Shown: piece by piece, positions 4,509-64,000 of the stretch
How the letters are laid out: each line of letters starts with the position of its first letter
Position numbering within the stretch: position 1 is the stretch's first letter
Assembly: GCA_021776135.1 (NCBI GenBank)
Contig: JAJFGL010000054.1
Location: 1-64,000, forward strand
Direction of reading: 5' to 3'
Length of the DNA: 64,000 nucleotides
Origin: Kiloniellaceae bacterium
GTDB lineage: Bacteria; Pseudomonadota; Alphaproteobacteria; Kiloniellales; J153
Notes under the pieces: generated by a model
What the model was told of the DNA's origin: nothing
Seen by the model: only the letters and a program-made list of their open reading frames with translations
Databases searched by the model: none
Translations under genes and position numbers: made by a program

Positions 4509-4723
4509 AGTCTAGGTTAGTTAAGCGGCAACCTATGACCGCCCTGCCCCGCGCCCTATTAGGTTTACACCATGGCCAGCCAACTCATAACGGAATAGGG
4601 CAAAGCTTTTCACTTCTTCGCTATGCGCGATTATGGTAATAGCGCGGTTAATTAGTGCACTGTCACCGTAATCCGTAATCGTAATCCCGCAATCCTGATC
4701 TAACGACAGGGGCCCGTAATAAA

Positions 4724-55253: not shown

Positions 55254-56425
55254 CCCTGCTGGTAGCCATCGGCGCCGTGCCGGGGGAGGTACGCTGCGCC
55301 TGGCTGGACAGTGGCCGCTTGCGTGGCCTGAGTATTCAGCGCGATAGCCGCCCGGCCTGCGCCGATAATCTTTATCTGGGGCGGGTAACCAGCCTGGATA
55401 AATCCCTGGACGCCGCCTTTGTCGATATTGGCCAAGCCCGCTCCGGTTTTCTGCCCCGGGGCGAGGCCCCCAAGGGCTTGAGCAGCGGCGACAGCCTGGC
55501 AGTCCGGGTCAAGCGCGAGCCCCTTGAAGACAAGGGCGCGCGCCTGACCGCCCTGCGCTTGGATCTATCGCCGGAGCTAATCCGGAACGCCGCCAGCGCC
55601 AAGCCCCCTGCCCTGCTGCATGACGCAGGCGATCCCCTGATCGCCGTGCGCGACAGCGGCGAAACCCCGGACGAGATCGTCATCGACGACGAGGCTTGGC
55701 ATGGCCGGGCCCGGCGCATCTTCGCCGGGCGCCCGGACCTACTGGCGTGCTTGCGCCTCGACCTGGCGCCCCAGGTGTTATTCGAGCGCTTGGGCCTGGA
55801 GGCGGAGATCGACGCCCTCTTACAGCCCCAAGCCCCGCTGCCCTCCGGCGGCACGCTCCTGTTCGAGCCGGTGCGGACTCTGACCGCCATAGATGTCAAC
55901 GCGGCCCGCCATGGCGCCGGCGGCGCCGCTGGCCAAGCCTTGGCGGTCAATCTGGAAGCCGCCGCCGCGATACCCGAACACTTGCGCCTGCGCAACCTCT
56001 CCGGCCTGATCGTCGTCGATTTCCTGACCCTCGGCGATCCCAAGGCGCGCCACAGGGTTACCGAAGCCTTGAAGCAAGCCTGCCGGGGCGATGCGAACCC
56101 GGTGCGTATCCAGGTCATGCGGCCGTCCGGCCTGCTGGAGATGACCCGCCGCCGCGCCCGCCCGCCCCTGCACGAGATCTTGACCGAGCCCCAAGGCCCA
56201 CTCAAAAGCGCCGAAACCCTGGGTTTCGAGGCCTTGCGGCATTTACGCGCGGCGGCCAGCGGCCGCCCCATACGCCGCCTCGCCTTGCGCGCCGCACCGG
56301 GTATCGCAGCCGCCTTGACCGGTCCCTGCGCCGCCGCGCGCGCGGCCCTGGAAGCCCGCCTGGGCCGGGCCCTGGAAATCGAGACCGACGCCGCGCAAGA
56401 CAGCTTCCTGATCGTGTTAGACTAG
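55250..56425 (+). CDS. rng: Short RNase E/G-family protein without zinc link
   Basis: 391 residues, about 100 shorter than E. coli RNase G. The S1 part is LYLGRVTSLDKSLDAAFVDIGQARSGFLPRGEA, and the catalytic Asp pair is in RTLTAIDVNAARHG and GLIVVDFLTLGDPKARHRV. The CPxCxGxG zinc-link of RNase E/G is missing; the corresponding stretch reads RARPPLHEILTEPQGPLKS. Without the link the tetramer may not form. It could be a specialised or reduced ribonuclease. The stop codon TAG is also the left edge of a MITE-like element. Confidence 0.88.
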   Translation: MTLLVAIGAVPGEVRCAWLDSGRLRGLSIQRDSRPACADNLYLGRVTSLDKSLDAAFVDIGQARSGFLPRGEAPKGLSSGDSLAVRVKREPLEDKGARLTALRLDLSPELIRNAASAKPPALLHDAGDPLIAVRDSGETPDEIVIDDEAWHGRARRIFAGRPDLLACLRLDLAPQVLFERLGLEAEIDALLQPQAPLPSGGTLLFEPVRTLTAIDVNAARHGAGGAAGQALAVNLEAAAAIPEHLRLRNLSGLIVVDFLTLGDPKARHRVTEALKQACRGDANPVRIQVMRPSGLLEMTRRRARPPLHEILTEPQGPLKSAETLGFEALRHLRAAASGRPIRRLALRAAPGIAAALTGPCAAARAALEARLGRALEIETDAAQDSFLIVLD

Positions 56426-56718
56426 GGCCTGTTGACACTTAGGATGCCGTCGCGGTTGGGCCAAAATGACGCGAGGTTAGGAGCGAGGACGCAGGACATG
56501 CAGCGCATATTCAAGGACGCCCGACGCGGCATCGCGTCTAAGGACGAGCGACGCGGCCTCGCGTCATTTTGGCCCAATCCCGCTGGGACGGGTCGTATTA
56601 TCCCACCCGCCGCGTCGCGAACGGCTTGTGGGGGGCCTACCACACGGCGCCGTCCGCTCCTAACGGGTGGGAAAATCCGATCCCGCCTCGGCGGCATCCT
56701 AAGTGTCAACAGGCCCTA
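56422..56718. mobile_element. MITE-like element with 27-bp inverted ends and two inner hairpins
   Basis: Terminal repeats 56423-56449 and 56692-56718 are perfect 27-base inverses (outer end TAGGGCCTGTTGACACTTAG). Inside, a 21-base stem (56456-56476 with 56557-56577; core GGGCCAAAATGACGCG) and a 9-base stem TCCCACCCG (56601-56609) with 56664-56672 form two hairpins, the same cloverleaf plan as 44820-45087. TA dinucleotides flank both ends. It sits between the RNase G-like gene and yacG. Confidence 0.8.
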
Positions 56719-56724
56719 AGGGCC

Positions 56725-57940: not shown

Positions 57941-58016
57941 GCCCAGGTAGCTCAGTTGGTAGAGCACGTGACTGAAAATCACGGTGTCGGTGGTTCGATT
58001 CCGCCCCTGGGCACCA
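57941..58016 (+). tRNA. tRNA-Phe (anticodon GAA)
   Basis: 76 bases including an encoded CCA. Acceptor GCCCAGG pairs with CCTGGGC (58006-58012), the anticodon stem CGTGA/TCACG encloses CTGAAAA, with GAA at 57974-57976, and the T-loop GGTTCGATTCC is canonical. No repeat of the tRNA 3' end was seen downstream. Confidence 0.98.
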
Positions 58017-58025
58017 TTCTTTACA

Positions 58026-58058
58026 AAGGGTTAGGCCATATCGCCTAGCCCTTTTTCC
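58026..58058 (+). terminator. Rho-independent terminator after tRNA-Phe
   Basis: AAAGGGTTAGGC and GCCTAGCCCTTT form a stem over a short loop, followed directly by T residues (58052-58056). Confidence 0.85.
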
Positions 58059-58835
58059 TTTCTAAGGCAACGCTCAAGGCAACACAGTTTCCGTTGAACG
58101 GGAATGAAGGGCATTGATCTGCGTGAGCCATTCAGAGGAGCGCACAGCGACTTTGGATTTGCCGCGGCCGGGGCCGAGATCCCCCGCTGTGACTATTCGA
58201 GGGCCGTACATTGTGGCGTTTCGTGGCAGTGCGATCCTGTCGGAATAAACTCGATGCTTTGCTGATGCCCATACTCACGACCGAAACAAGCTAAGAAGCC
58301 TGAAAGAGCCCGCACAGCAACACCTCCTAACCCAAATACCAAACGATGAAAAAACCGCATCGCCGTACGGTCATCAATCACCTGGGCGACGAACACCTGG
58401 GCGACGAAGATTTTAAGATGTTTGGGGACCTAGGGAATGTCGTTCATGATACCTGGGTTGGCTTGCTGAGGGGGATGAAATACCACTCGAATTGTGTCTC
58501 TTGAAACCTTAGCAAGACCGTCACGCTGGGGATTTCCATTCAGTTTCAGCGCCCGTGGGAAGCCTCATCGGCGCCCCTGCGTCCCCAAGGCTCGCATGCC
58601 GCCACCACGGCGGCCCAAGGTTTGGGCAAGCTCAATCCCGACCACATCGGCCACTCAAAATTAGCTTACTATAAGTTGACTACTTCTTTTCTTATACCTA
58701 CCATTAATTTCCAGTTTGACGAGCCAACGATGCAAGATAGGCGCACGGCCCGTCCAAATCTGTGACGAAGCAATAACAGACCAGATCCCGCATCGGTTGA
58801 AAATCGATGAACGGGCTGGCATTAGGGAGGCGAAG
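58059..58835. other. Gene-poor region between tRNA-Phe and the lipoprotein operon
   Basis: About 780 bases of lower-GC sequence without a convincing gene. A 52-residue frame at 58346-58504 (start MKKPHRRTVINHLGDE) lacks a ribosome site and contains a 15-base tandem repeat (CACCTGGGCGACGAA at 58379 and 58394). The stretch could be a degraded integration scar beside the tRNA, but no integrase remnant was recognised. Confidence 0.5.
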
Positions 58836-59501
58836 ATGAACCAGAGGGTTGGTCGCTGGTCCCGCTGTTTATTGGTTGCGGGAATCTGTACCGCGAATAT
58901 TTGGCTTGCCGCCTGCAGCACCGAGGAAATCATCGGCAGCACCGTTGGCGCCACAATTCTGGGGGCGAACTCGCCCTCGCAGGAAATTCAGCAAATCTAC
59001 TACCTCGGGGCGTTCGACCCGCAGGGACAACTGCCGCCGACGGTCTACCGCATCAGGGTCCACGGCCAGGCCAGCTTCATCAGCTTCGTGCGCTTCGCCA
59101 GCGGTTGGGTGCCGGCGCGGTTTATCGATTCGCTGAGCTCCGATGTCAGCTTCGGCGCGGATAAATCCACCGCCGTGCAAATCGATAAGGGGGCATCGGA
59201 CAAGCTTGCCAAGCTTACCACCGGCCGGCGGCTCATGCAGTTCGGCCCGGAGGGATTCCGCGAGGCGCCGAAAGACCATCGCCTGGTCATAGTGATGGGC
59301 TCGAGCCCGGAAAGCTTCTTCAGCGCGATCGACGAGTCGGTCGGTATCATCGCCCAGGCGCAAGCCGAACAGCGCGACAATAAGCTCGACCGGCAGCTGT
59401 TCGAGGCGCTTGCGGCCCTGCGCGATGAGCGCGAATCCCTGAACGCGCTCGACCGGCAGATCGACGCCGAGCTCGCACCGCCCAAGAGGCCAAGCTCTTG
59501 A
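58836..59501 (+). CDS. Lipoprotein, 221 residues, first gene of a lipoprotein operon
   Basis: ATG with GGGAGG upstream. The signal peptide ends in a lipobox IWLAACS with Cys27. The mature part (STVGATILGANSPSQEIQQIYYLGAFDPQGQLPPTVYRIRVHGQASFISFVRFASGWVPARFIDSLSSDVSF) is beta-rich; the last 60 residues (AQAEQRDNKLDRQLFEALAALRDERESLNALDRQIDAEL) form a coiled coil. I know no family for it. It overlaps the 1448-residue lipoprotein gene by 4 bases. Confidence 0.8.
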   Translation: MNQRVGRWSRCLLVAGICTANIWLAACSTEEIIGSTVGATILGANSPSQEIQQIYYLGAFDPQGQLPPTVYRIRVHGQASFISFVRFASGWVPARFIDSLSSDVSFGADKSTAVQIDKGASDKLAKLTTGRRLMQFGPEGFREAPKDHRLVIVMGSSPESFFSAIDESVGIIAQAQAEQRDNKLDRQLFEALAALRDERESLNALDRQIDAELAPPKRPSS

Positions 59502-62500
59502 CGGCCGCAGCCGCGGTGCTTCGCCCGCTCGCCCTAGGCGCAGCAATCGCCCTGCTCACCGGCTGCGCGGTGATGCGGATCGACGTTGACGTATATAAGG
59601 GCCCCCTTGCCGACGAGATTGACGTGCAGACCCAAGAATTTGTCGCCATGGCAATCGGCGCCAAGCCACTCTTGATCCAGCTTCGGGACCTTCTGCAGTG
59701 GCCGAAAGATGAAGACCGAGAATGTGCCAGGAACCAAAAGTCTCCTGACTACGAGGCGGGCTATTTTGTCGGTCCTCATAAGGCACAGCCGAATGGCGAA
59801 GATTGTCCACTTGGTGCCCCTGACCACTGGAACGAGCGCGCCGAACGTGTCAACGGCGTTTTAAGTCTTTATCTGCACATCGACGACGTCCGCGCAAGAG
59901 ACCGAACTAGTCCCAGTCCACTCGAAACATCTATAATAAACGGGCTCGTCCAGGGGGATAAATTCAAGGAACAGCTAGGTGTCTTCAATAATCTGGATAA
60001 GCCTGAGCAGGCTCTTTGGAAGACGTTTGACAACGAAATCACGAAAAACTTGGATGCTATTGAGAATAAATATAAGGGCCTTCTCAATCTGCAACCCTCG
60101 GATAAGTTCTTTAATAATCTCAAGACAGCAGCGAATGCGTTAAAAAATAAATACCGTGAAATCTTCAATTCACAAAGGAACGGGCCATCGCATCGAACAG
60201 TCAAGGGGCTAATTATTGTATTCAACAATTATATCAATGTACTGGATACACAATTAACAGCATCACTCAAAAAACAGCGATCAACTAATATTAGAAATAA
60301 AATAAACGACGAAGCCGCAAGTGTCCGTGCATCTAGAAAAAGACTCAAGACGCGCTTGGAAGGTCACGACGCGTCAGAGGCAACGGGTCGTGTTTTCGAG
60401 TATTGGCTGTTGAGTGACGCTGAAATTGTCTCGGATCATGCGAAGATACTTTTCGGTAGCGCCAAATCTCCGACCGCGGAGAAATTTATCGCGCGCGTGG
60501 TTGAGAAAGCCGGCGCCTATTTCGGGATGCGCAAGGCCATTCGAAACATGTGGCTTGTAGCGCTCGACAGCTTGATCTTGATTGATTCGGAAAAGTTCGT
60601 TTTTCCCGAAAAGAAGACCGCGCTTATCGCGCTCGCGGCTGATCTAATCAGCGTATTGAGCCAACCAGAACACATTGCCGTGGCGACCAACATTCCCGTG
60701 AGCAAGGCTTTCAACGGAACTCTTAAACAACTGAAACGGTTCCTGGATGAGACCGGGCACGGCATCTGGGATCCCCCGCCTTCTTCTAAGTCTATTTCCG
60801 ACATCGTCTGGGACTTTGACGTCATCAATCGCTCTGTTCGCCTAGCTGTTGTAAAGCGGCCGACGGAAATGGCCAAACTTCTCATTGAGGCGGACGCCAC
60901 TCTCAAGGAATTTGCAAAGCGGGAAATCATTAAACTAAAGAACCAATCCCTACCCTCGCCTCGATCTCTTGCGCGTGAGGTATCGCTTCTGGAATTAAAT
61001 CTGTTCGGTTTGTCGCGCGGGCCCTCGTTCGGTGACGCTGAAAAGGAACTGAGGCTCGTTGATATTAAATCAAATCTCCAATCACAGAAAAATACAATTG
61101 GCAGAGGGACGGCTGGCCTGGACAAGGGTCGCCTAGAGAAAGGGATCGAGGATCTTATCAAGGAGTATCTCGAGGCATCGACGCAGCCGGCATCCAGTGG
61201 AAATAAGCCCGACACCATCAAGGTGACGCGCAAGGTGGAGCGAGACAATTTGCTCGAAGCATTGGTCCGGTTCTCGAAAAAGATCCTGATTATCGCAGAC
61301 AACGACAAACTCCTACGGGACCCTTTGTCCGATACAGGAACGAAACTCGACCGCTATGTTCTCGTCTTGCAGGCGATCGGGAACTCGATCCGCATCCAAG
61401 CCGATGAGCTAAAGCAGCGCGAAAAACACGAAAAGAAGCTTGAAGACAGAACTTACGCGGAGGCCTGGGCGGTGGAAACGGCATTGGCACGCTCCGCCAA
61501 ATCTGTGATAGAGGATGTTCTTGCTGAGCTAAAAAGCTTGCAAGAGAGTGCCAGCAAAGACATCGCGGACTCGAAGAAGAGGGCCGACGATGCCAGCGGG
61601 AAATTCAAGCAGATCGAAACCACAGCTCTGAAAGCGCAGACTGACGAGAAAGTAGCAAAGGCCGCCCTGCAGCGCGCAATGCAAGACCTGGAAACTCTTA
61701 TGAACAAGCAGCCACAGTATGATGCGGCGGTCCAGATATTGACTAATACGGGCGGAATATCGATTCCCGACTTCATAAAGACGAACTCCAGCGAACCGGA
61801 TGTCGGCGGCGCCAAGATGGCCGATGAAATTCTTGCCTGGCTAAACAAAGAAAAGCAAAAGCATCTGACGAATTTTCCCAAGAAGATGCGGCTTGAAAAT
61901 GCGGTCGCTTTCTTCTCCGCCGACCCGTCAACCGTCCGGGGTTTCGATTCGATGCCTCGTGCCGATGTTCTCAAGGAAATGGCCAAGGTTGCCAATTCCA
62001 ACCTTCAAGAAATCAAGAAAAAAATCGCCGCGACAAAGTCTCTGATCCTTAAATTGCAATCAAACGCTAAGAACTTTGCGCGGGCCCTTGAAGACGCGAA
62101 TAAGGATAAAGCCAAGGGAGAATTCGCGGTGACATCGGAGGCAACTAAACTTCGTACCGCGACCGAATCCAAAGCTCACCTCGAACTCGCAGTCGCCGCG
62201 GTTCGCGAGGTCTTGACGAAAGTCATACTTACAACGCAACAAGCGGAAGCTTCAGATTCCGCGGCGGCAGTCTTTTGGACCATCGTTGCGGTGGTCAATC
62301 AAGAGCTTGTCGCCGCGACGGCGGCGTCTGAAGCGGCGCCGAACAACAAGGAAGGGAAAGCCAAGCAGAAGCGGTTTCAAGCCGCGGCCGACGTGTTGCG
62401 GGCCATCAACCCGCCGTTGGAAAAGAACATCTTTGCGGGACTAAAAGATAATACGGGTTACGACAGGAAGAATGCGCGCGTTGTTTTAGACGAGATGATC

Positions 62501-63844
62501 GCGCTGCTTCGTCATGAGCATATCCTTGCCGTTCGTCAATGGGGCGAGGACAGCCCAAGGGCCAGACACATTAACAACGCACTGGCGACCGCTTACGAGC
62601 AACGGGCGGGCATGACATACATCCGTCCATCGGGTGCCTATCTGCGCAGCAGCTATCCGGCGACCGCGTTGCAGGACGATCCCCGGCTGGGCTGGAGCAA
62701 CATGCTGGGACAGCACGGGTTTCGGACCCTGCCCTTCATCGGGGGCGCCTTTGCGCACAGCCCGGATGAGCGAAAGCGGCTCGAAATTCAGAGCGAAATC
62801 GACAAGCAGTTCTGGCAGACGATCAACAGCGTTCGGGTCGCCGGCGCGGGGATCACGAACTACGTCATGGCCAAGGACGACATCGGCAACTGGTACGTCA
62901 AGAGTTACTCGGCCAATCCCGCGCCGATTATCAAATCCGCTAAGAGTCTCGCGCTGCTTGGCTTGGGCGGTCAATTCGACTCGAACCTCGTCTCCAAGGT
63001 ACGCGACCAAAAAGGCATAGATCCCGAGAAGGACGATGAATCCACACCGGCAACAGGCATGGGGCGTCTGCTCGAAAAGCATCGAAGCAAGTATGCTAAG
63101 ACGACCGGCGAAGATTACACTGCACTCAAGAACCTCGTGGATAGTTCGGCCACGTCGCCAATTGTCACGGACCTAAATCAAGCACTTCGATCCAACAGGG
63201 ACACGAAGGATGCGACCTGGCTCGGCGATCTTGAGACGTCGGTCGAAACAGCGAGCGGCGAAGCGCTAACGACTGCCAAGGGCCGCCTTACGGACAAAAA
63301 GGACCCGGCAGAGCAAGCCTTGGAGATCAATGTTGCGCTCACCGAGGTCAAAACCTTTTACCCGATCTTCCAGGCGAAGTTGCAGGCACTAGATATTGTG
63401 ACCAATGCAAAGAAGGACTTAGCAAGCGATCAGAAACAACTGAAGACTCTCGAGTCTGAACGCGCGGCAAAGCAAAGTGAGCTGGAGGCTGCCAAGATTG
63501 AATTGGCGGAAAAGCCGGAGGACCTGGGCTTGCAAAATGAGATCGAGCGGCTCACTGGAGAACTCGCGGCAAAGCAAACGGCGGTGGATGAAGCTCAAAA
63601 GAGGGTGCATGATGCTGAACAAAAGGTTACGAGCGCCGGTAATGCCGAGGCAACGGCACTGAGTGAGGCGGCGCGCATTGTTCGAAAGCACTTGAAACGC
63701 GTCACCGTCCGGCGCTTTAAGGCGGTTGACGATTACGAAACCGCTGTCATATTCATCGGCGATGCGAACAACCCGCCCAAGAAGGAACAGACTAAATCTG
63801 GAGAGACTTCACCGGGCACAGGTGGAACTGGCTCCTCGCCGTAA
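59498..63844 (+). CDS. Giant coiled-coil lipoprotein, 1448 residues, unknown function
   Basis: Starts with TTG overlapping the previous stop, AGAGG upstream. Lipobox ALLTGCAV with Cys23. No known domain is recognisable. Helical, charged sequence predominates, with coiled-coil stretches at about residues 640-740, 820-910 and 1297-1400 (for example KDLASDQKQLKTLESERAAKQ). A more globular block lies at about 1022-1170 (TYIRPSGAYLRSSYPATAL, LGWSNMLGQHGFRTLPFIGGAF), and the tail is Gly/Ser/Thr-rich. Base composition between 59.9 and 62.3 kb is distinctly A+T-richer than in the housekeeping genes, a sign of transfer. It could be a large envelope-spanning scaffold. Confidence 0.8.
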   Translation: MTAAAAVLRPLALGAAIALLTGCAVMRIDVDVYKGPLADEIDVQTQEFVAMAIGAKPLLIQLRDLLQWPKDEDRECARNQKSPDYEAGYFVGPHKAQPNGEDCPLGAPDHWNERAERVNGVLSLYLHIDDVRARDRTSPSPLETSIINGLVQGDKFKEQLGVFNNLDKPEQALWKTFDNEITKNLDAIENKYKGLLNLQPSDKFFNNLKTAANALKNKYREIFNSQRNGPSHRTVKGLIIVFNNYINVLDTQLTASLKKQRSTNIRNKINDEAASVRASRKRLKTRLEGHDASEATGRVFEYWLLSDAEIVSDHAKILFGSAKSPTAEKFIARVVEKAGAYFGMRKAIRNMWLVALDSLILIDSEKFVFPEKKTALIALAADLISVLSQPEHIAVATNIPVSKAFNGTLKQLKRFLDETGHGIWDPPPSSKSISDIVWDFDVINRSVRLAVVKRPTEMAKLLIEADATLKEFAKREIIKLKNQSLPSPRSLAREVSLLELNLFGLSRGPSFGDAEKELRLVDIKSNLQSQKNTIGRGTAGLDKGRLEKGIEDLIKEYLEASTQPASSGNKPDTIKVTRKVERDNLLEALVRFSKKILIIADNDKLLRDPLSDTGTKLDRYVLVLQAIGNSIRIQADELKQREKHEKKLEDRTYAEAWAVETALARSAKSVIEDVLAELKSLQESASKDIADSKKRADDASGKFKQIETTALKAQTDEKVAKAALQRAMQDLETLMNKQPQYDAAVQILTNTGGISIPDFIKTNSSEPDVGGAKMADEILAWLNKEKQKHLTNFPKKMRLENAVAFFSADPSTVRGFDSMPRADVLKEMAKVANSNLQEIKKKIAATKSLILKLQSNAKNFARALEDANKDKAKGEFAVTSEATKLRTATESKAHLELAVAAVREVLTKVILTTQQAEASDSAAAVFWTIVAVVNQELVAATAASEAAPNNKEGKAKQKRFQAAADVLRAINPPLEKNIFAGLKDNTGYDRKNARVVLDEMIALLRHEHILAVRQWGEDSPRARHINNALATAYEQRAGMTYIRPSGAYLRSSYPATALQDDPRLGWSNMLGQHGFRTLPFIGGAFAHSPDERKRLEIQSEIDKQFWQTINSVRVAGAGITNYVMAKDDIGNWYVKSYSANPAPIIKSAKSLALLGLGGQFDSNLVSKVRDQKGIDPEKDDESTPATGMGRLLEKHRSKYAKTTGEDYTALKNLVDSSATSPIVTDLNQALRSNRDTKDATWLGDLETSVETASGEALTTAKGRLTDKKDPAEQALEINVALTEVKTFYPIFQAKLQALDIVTNAKKDLASDQKQLKTLESERAAKQSELEAAKIELAEKPEDLGLQNEIERLTGELAAKQTAVDEAQKRVHDAEQKVTSAGNAEATALSEAARIVRKHLKRVTVRRFKAVDDYETAVIFIGDANNPPKKEQTKSGETSPGTGGTGSSP

Positions 63845-63864
63845 CCGACTGGGGGAAAGTAGTT

Positions 63865-64000
63865 TTGCTGTGGGCTCTTGAAGGTGCCGGTCTTGCTGCA
63901 CTCTCTGTGCTTTTGCTCGCCGCCTGCACCGACACACGTACTCGGGATACAAGAAACTCAGCGCCGTCCGTCACGGCTACCATAGTCGAGCGTGGCCTAA
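63865..64000 (+). CDS. Start of a third lipoprotein gene (truncated by window end)
   Basis: From a TTG preceded by GGGGGAAAG, 45 codons stay open to the window edge. The peptide begins with a membrane-inserting signal (LWALEGAGLAALSVLLLAAC) ending in a lipobox with Cys21, then a polar stretch TDTRTRDTRNSAPSVT. It follows the giant lipoprotein gene by 20 bases, so the operon contains at least three lipoproteins. Nothing can be said of the rest. Confidence 0.65.
   Translation, partial: MLWALEGAGLAALSVLLLAACTDTRTRDTRNSAPSVTATIVERGL

Follow-up and report, generated by a model that had tools for sequence, protein, structure and literature searches.

Membrane-fusion lipoproteins of the AcrA/MexA type are lipid-anchored, with a helical hairpin region set between terminal beta elements, and tethers of the Lpp/Pal type are outer-membrane lipoproteins. 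In bacterial competition, the outer-membrane lipoprotein Tli3 confers immunity to Tle3, a phospholipase effector of the type VI secretion system (T6SS) (PMC9860674). The lipoprotein pair described here, named A and B, shares some traits with each of these and is encoded in a 64,000-nucleotide stretch (hereafter the window) of a Kiloniellaceae bacterium, corresponding to bases 1-64000 of a 68,021-base contig (C50; JAJFGL010000054.1) in a 4.0-Mb draft genome (GCA_021776135.1). Gene A (58836..59501, forward strand) encodes the small partner, a lipoprotein of 221 amino acids (aa), and gene B (59498..63844, forward strand) encodes the large partner, a lipoprotein of 1448 aa.

Like AcrA and MexA, B is predicted to be lipid-anchored and to have terminal beta elements around a helical region. 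However, it has no Pfam or Foldseek match, no recognised lipoyl or beta-barrel segments and no transporter neighbour, and the periplasmic adaptor fold, with lipoyl and beta-barrel parts around a hairpin, was not recovered by Foldseek in the PDB at E <= 0.001, the model used having four strands only. B also resembles the Lpp/Pal-type tethers as a helical lipoprotein that could span the periplasm, whereas the members of its family measure 445-2016 aa, possess an obligatory partner and keep a conserved beta core; profile scans detected neither an OmpA-like nor an Lpp domain. A minority of A-B loci share with Tle3-Tli3 a lipoprotein encoded beside a leaderless lipolytic hydrolase. In contrast to that system, A-B is a fixed two-lipoprotein unit whose hydrolase varies or is absent, with no detectable sequence family match, and Tli3 is a beta-sheet protein whereas B is mostly helical.

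The A-B unit and its distribution

A scan of 84,980 species genomes yielded 74 related loci from the Alpha-, Beta- and Gammaproteobacteria, Planctomycetota, Verrucomicrobiota, Nitrospirota, Nitrospinota, Myxococcota/Deltaproteobacteria, Rokubacteria and Binatota, representing at least eight phyla. Since cultured strains are among the carriers (Denitrobaculum tricleocarpae, Rhizobacter, Duganella, Pseudoduganella flava, Ideonella, Pseudoalteromonas luteoviolacea and Planctomycetes Pla86), the pair is not a binning artefact, and B, being conserved as protein across phyla, is not a chance open reading frame (ORF). When all locus ORFs were clustered, 70 of 78 loci proved to have a relative of A immediately upstream of B in the same orientation, the two genes mostly overlapping by 4 bp or lying a few bases apart; in the window the overlap is 4 bp (59498-59501) and includes the stop codon of A. 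A was not detected in the remaining eight loci, several of which are cut by a contig end. B was present in 8 of 61 genomes of the window's order and in 5 of 385 genomes of its class. The A profile recovered seven genomes of the order, all among the eight with B and never A alone, while the eighth (G020) carries beside B a divergent A that the profile missed. A was also found in 8 of 392 Planctomycetota genomes.

Pairwise distances of A and B were correlated (r = 0.62 with the divergent subfamily left out; none of 2000 permutations reached this value), and the divergent subfamily of short B proteins, marked by [RM]-[IV]-EVEVYKGPLS, has its own divergent A. Furthermore, the ratio of nonsynonymous to synonymous substitution rates (dN/dS) in three tubeworm symbionts was 0.11-0.15 for A and 0.18-0.23 for B, indicating that both are maintained under purifying selection. 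A-B as a unit is well supported, and because the pair travels together through at least eight phyla, A and B probably form an undescribed cell-envelope machine. In a tree of A, the Planctomycetota were dispersed (11 changes for 11 rows), and a single branch with strong support united a Binatia and a Rhodospirillaceae sequence. Horizontal movement of A-B is likely, although the tree, with its weak deep branches, falls short of proof.

As a separate observation, two loci from different genomes (L047 and L110) hold A-B between the same kinds of genes, an MPDGRE-type protein upstream and a RidA-like protein downstream. Their A proteins are not sisters, and the shared site hints at old residence or exchange.

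Sequence families and predicted architecture of A and B

A and B are real protein families, new to every library searched here. For A, 58 members scanned singly against Pfam and NCBIfam gave no consistent family and no match above chance; for B, five different members against Pfam and four against NCBIfam, relatives from other phyla included, gave only matches below cut-off. PADLOC-DB 2.0.0 returned chance-level coiled-coil matches only (Cas11e, E 0.0026; LmuB, E 0.012), and PHROGs returned a single weak match for B (E 0.00024) confined to a helical stretch. Among PDB sequences, the A and B profiles found no related chain except long-helix proteins for B; these matches (apolipoprotein A-I, MutS2 and others) were confined to helical stretches and were put down to composition. 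Models of A and of a B relative (L059) gave no Foldseek match with E <= 0.001 in the PDB, nor did A in the viral models of BFVD. No relatives of A-B were found in plasmids, phages or viral contigs (IMG/VR), and a phage or plasmid origin was rejected on this ground. A literature search found no paper on the DVDVYKGPL motif, on the two-gene lipoprotein operon, or on DUF900 with patatin and caspase; for DUF900 with a lipoprotein, only a paper on alpha/beta-hydrolase classification was found. The earlier note on this DNA had stated that B matches no family and had proposed an envelope lipoprotein system outside the known ones. The first statement was confirmed and the second supported: Pfam, NCBIfam, PADLOC, PHROGs and PDB sequences gave no credible match, the PDB held no similar fold, and no profile search placed B in a family.

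A and B each carry a signal peptide and a lipobox Cys of the Lsp type, and an hhalign comparison of the two proteins gave an alignment limited to the signal peptides, so homology between them was rejected. Gene A starts with ATG at 58836, has GGGAGG upstream and encodes the lipobox LAAC; a candidate lipid Cys is present in 68 of 70 A proteins. In the AlphaFold model (mean predicted local distance difference test, pLDDT, 79), an Ala/Gly-rich helix of small residues follows the lipid Cys and leads into a beta domain and then a 56-residue C-terminal helix. Thirteen positions are invariant across 58 A sequences: Y56, G58, D61, Y71, R72, G77, W91, R131, G137, P138, G140, R142 and R149.

Gene B is a 1448-codon open frame with a TTG start and the lipobox LTGC. 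Across 55 sequences, the ends of B are fixed and its helical region is variable in length. A lipobox was scored in 51 of the 55, and the lipid Cys motif is visible in two of the four misses. Position +2 is Ala or Ser in 47 of the 51 scored members, residues that mark outer-membrane sorting in enterobacteria. The most conserved N-terminal signature comprises residues 23-37 (59564..59608, forward strand), where the lipidated Cys is followed by the strand CAVMRIDVDVYKGPL; the family pattern is C-A-x-x-[IV]DVDVYKGPL, and V30, V32, Y33, K34, G35 and P36 are invariant in the 55 sequences. The conservation profile of the same set also marked a middle helical region at residues 540-640 (61115..61417, forward strand; GR..GL..LI..YL, L..ALVRF..K and LQA.GNSI..QADEL). 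It further marked a C-terminal core at residues 996-1157 (62483..62968, forward strand; YIRP...YLRSS, DKQFWQTINSVRVAG.G and KDDIGNWYVK), which has three strands in the model. The signature FWQNIN...KDDIGNWYVK is kept across the family, with W1106, N1110, K1126, D1127, D1128, G1130, N1131 and W1132 invariant.

The AlphaFold model of the 819-aa relative L059 (mean pLDDT 79) consists mostly of short helices plus a small beta-sheet. Its only four strands are residues 22-31, just after the Cys, and residues 533-543, 548-553 and 559-564, in the KDDIGNW core; the remainder is helix. Because a strand needs a partner, the N-terminal strand would have to join the C-terminal three, a pairing inferred from the listed secondary structure of the model and not from its coordinates. 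If so, the helical bulk of B would be a looped-out arm of variable length. The description of B as mostly coiled coil was overstated, since a crude heptad scan against shuffles scored ~17% of its residues in the window as coiled coil, limited to three segments, all on the forward strand: residues 658-737 (61469..61708), 821-912 (61958..62233) and 1341-1416 (63518..63745).

Hydrolase neighbours and readings of the pair

A leaderless hydrolase of varying class lay beside A-B in ~11 of 70 loci, and signal peptides were absent from those hydrolase neighbours that were checked. DUF900 alpha/beta-hydrolases are encoded immediately beside A-B on the same strand in three loci (L054, L074 and L115). 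Large patatin-like proteins, in the same orientation, adjoin the pair in L085 and L052 and lie the second gene over in L095, there with a peptidoglycan-binding domain. Subtilases were likewise found beside A-B and on its strand in L073 and L095, as was an EEP-type (DNase-I-like) nuclease in L055, a relative of which converges on B in L023. Downstream of A-B on the same strand in Ideonella (L083, 14885-17737), a leaderless 951-aa protein combines Amidase_2 and caspase (C14) domains with a GHSAGS motif between them. About 24 DUF900 genes occur in 45 A-B genomes, three of them within 250 bp of A-B versus 0.003 expected, and about 26 large patatin relatives occur in 46 A-B genomes, three within 2 kb versus 0.02 expected.

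These neighbours, the sole lead on function, point weakly to a role of A-B as a conflict or interaction platform. The reading that we tentatively prefer, plausible but short of probable, is that an uncatalogued diderm envelope complex has A and B as its two obligatory components and is the fixed envelope part of a moving interaction or conflict module with varying enzymes. Both proteins would be lipidated and sorted to the outer membrane, where A may bind B near the membrane; the strand after B's lipid Cys would complete a small sheet formed with the three KDDIGNW-core strands, and the helical bulk would loop out as an arm or scaffold. The pair might then act as a dock, receptor or self-protection part of the horizontally moving module. 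The enzymatic part (DUF900 hydrolase, patatin phospholipase, subtilase, amidase-caspase fusion or EEP nuclease) would vary, lying beside A-B in some genomes, while others, the window's included, would encode it at another site or lack it. A more specific form is unlikely: a new, horizontally spread system of interbacterial conflict or envelope defence in which A-B would be the constant outer-membrane platform and the hydrolase effectors (lipases, proteases, amidases, nucleases) would be interchangeable, with neither sequence nor fold relating it to any known secretion or defence apparatus. A machine, defence or competition system had been put forward as a possibility from the window alone; the hydrolase neighbours support it indirectly, but PADLOC gave no credible match.

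Several observations weigh against the preferred reading. About 59 of the 70 loci have no hydrolase neighbour, and neither does the window's own locus, whose genome has its DUF900 gene on another contig. The hydrolase families were chosen after being seen, so the probabilities need correction, and shared families among adjacent genes in general were not enriched (58 adjacent-adjacent pairs versus 53 expected), so only the specific hydrolase families stand out. For these two reasons, the association is taken as real but limited. Furthermore, PADLOC holds no credible defence model for the pair, Asp occupies position +2 in 10 of 68 A proteins, for some of which inner-membrane retention is possible, and the predicted template modelling scores of the A and B-relative models are modest (0.52 and 0.56).

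The main rival is a structural tether or spacer, in which the outer-membrane pair extends an arm across the periplasm to the peptidoglycan or inner membrane, the length of the arm fits each envelope, and the hydrolases are incidental cargo. The strongly variable length of B with its fixed ends and extra helix would suit such a part, as would the housekeeping neighbours found exclusively at most loci and the invariant residues of A and B, which look structural and include no catalytic-looking set. However, so patchy a distribution (1-2% of the genomes in the class or phylum) and the mixing of phyla are odd for a structural component, and the adjacency of DUF900 and patatin genes is far above chance. 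On balance we regard a tether as possible but doubtful.

Alternatively, A-B could be an immunity or resistance module whose outer-membrane lipoproteins neutralise incoming leaderless phospholipases or other hydrolases, like the Tli lipoproteins of type VI phospholipase effectors. The leaderless hydrolases that adjoin the lipoproteins do include lipases, amidases and nucleases, and a precedent exists in Tli3, an outer-membrane lipoprotein that gives immunity to a T6SS phospholipase (PMC9860674). Immunity proteins are nevertheless specific to one effector, with the immunity gene beside it, whereas A-B stays constant while the hydrolase class changes among the ~11 of 70 loci that have one. Most copies have no effector beside them, and 1448 aa would be unusually large for an immunity protein. 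We regard this explanation as quite improbable. Least likely is an adhesin or receptor-like complex exposed at the cell surface, with phages or partners selecting for diversity in its variable helical region: the lipoprotein anchor, the variable central region and the symbiont- and biofilm-type hosts among the carriers would fit it, but the dN/dS of B (0.18-0.23) gives no hint of diversification in the one set of close relatives, and no surface-export partner is conserved beside A-B.

The tRNA-Phe site in the window and implications

The window's A-B lies downstream of a tRNA-Phe (GAA) gene (57941..58016, forward strand; ARAGORN) and a spacer of ~820 bases (58017..58835) without a convincing ORF, so the tRNA gene and gene-poor stretch reported before the operon are both present. 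The spacer is A+T-richer, with a guanine-plus-cytosine (GC) fraction of ~0.52-0.53, and gene B is likewise low (0.53); the proposed A+T-richness does not extend to gene A (0.63) or gene C (0.60), compared with 0.64 for window bases 1-57900. Gene C begins in the window (63865..64000, forward strand), ends at contig base 65031 and encodes a 388-aa lipoprotein with the lipobox LAAC and only a weak, sub-threshold Pfam resemblance to Phytase-like (E 0.067). Three lipoprotein genes thus stand in a row here, each with a signal peptide and lipobox Cys (LAAC, LTGC, LAAC) and the first two overlapping by 4 bp, as the earlier note had described. What is conserved elsewhere is the two-gene A-B alone; no relative of C lies beside any other A-B, and C was rejected as part of the conserved unit.

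The tRNA-Phe gene is an integration hotspot in the genus, which supports acquisition of the window's A-B at this site and makes it the natural reading. Among three congeners, A-B is absent from G001 and G002, and G003 carries only a divergent short version, on a different contig; the operon is therefore not conserved at this site in relatives. Other genes follow tRNA-Phe in G001. In G003, tRNA-Phe is followed by a 17-kb insert (L129, G003:C54, 56-17570) that is bounded at its far end by a second copy of the 3' part of the tRNA gene, next to which a tyrosine-type integrase is encoded. Downstream of A-B-C, the window's contig carries an insertion sequence (IS) 3-like transposase and the remnant of a further gene, and it breaks off after the start of an IS5-like transposase. 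The idea of an acquired island thus gains from the genus integration site and the downstream IS remnants, but no integrase or repeat of the tRNA 3' end (attachment repeat) was found after A-B-C through base 68,021, the right end of the insert lying beyond the contig. Linkage to tRNA genes was rejected as a trait of the family, as any tRNA occurred in 5 of 59 scanned loci (window excluded), with tmRNA only in one more.

Several side observations concern these sites. The G003 insert contains restriction/defence-like genes (McrC-like and DUF262-like by eye) and is a candidate defence island at the same site. On contig C62 of the window's genome, an orphan 33-bp exact copy of the tRNA-Phe 3' end (L131 ~4546-4578) could not be tied to the A-B island; a second copy on the same contig (L132 ~334-385, 52 bp at 85%) lies ~15.8 kb from it, with no tRNA gene nearby, and the two are possibly attachment sites of another element. 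In G001, an orphan tRNA-Phe 3' fragment lies directly beside a 414-aa integrase-like gene (L130 5061-6507, G001:C42). The window also has, at 56423-56719, a repeat of ~297 bp resembling a miniature inverted-repeat transposable element, with ~33-bp terminal inverted repeats. Dozens of its copies or fragments occur in the same genome, many at contig ends, and copies are also present in G002 and G003.

The earlier observation was thus partly confirmed and its interpretation partly supported, the finding becoming stronger in one respect, the conservation of the pair across phyla, and weaker in two, the missing conserved third gene and the limited coiled coil. None of the profile libraries searched here covers this obligatory two-gene unit, which occurs in cultured species from several phyla. 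Should A-B be a platform for exchangeable toxic hydrolases, it would open up a new class of systems in bacterial competition or defence; even as a simple tether, it would be a new, widely transferred envelope element. Both readings are open to testing in carriers that can be cultured, among them Pseudoalteromonas luteoviolacea, Duganella, Pseudoduganella flava and Denitrobaculum tricleocarpae.

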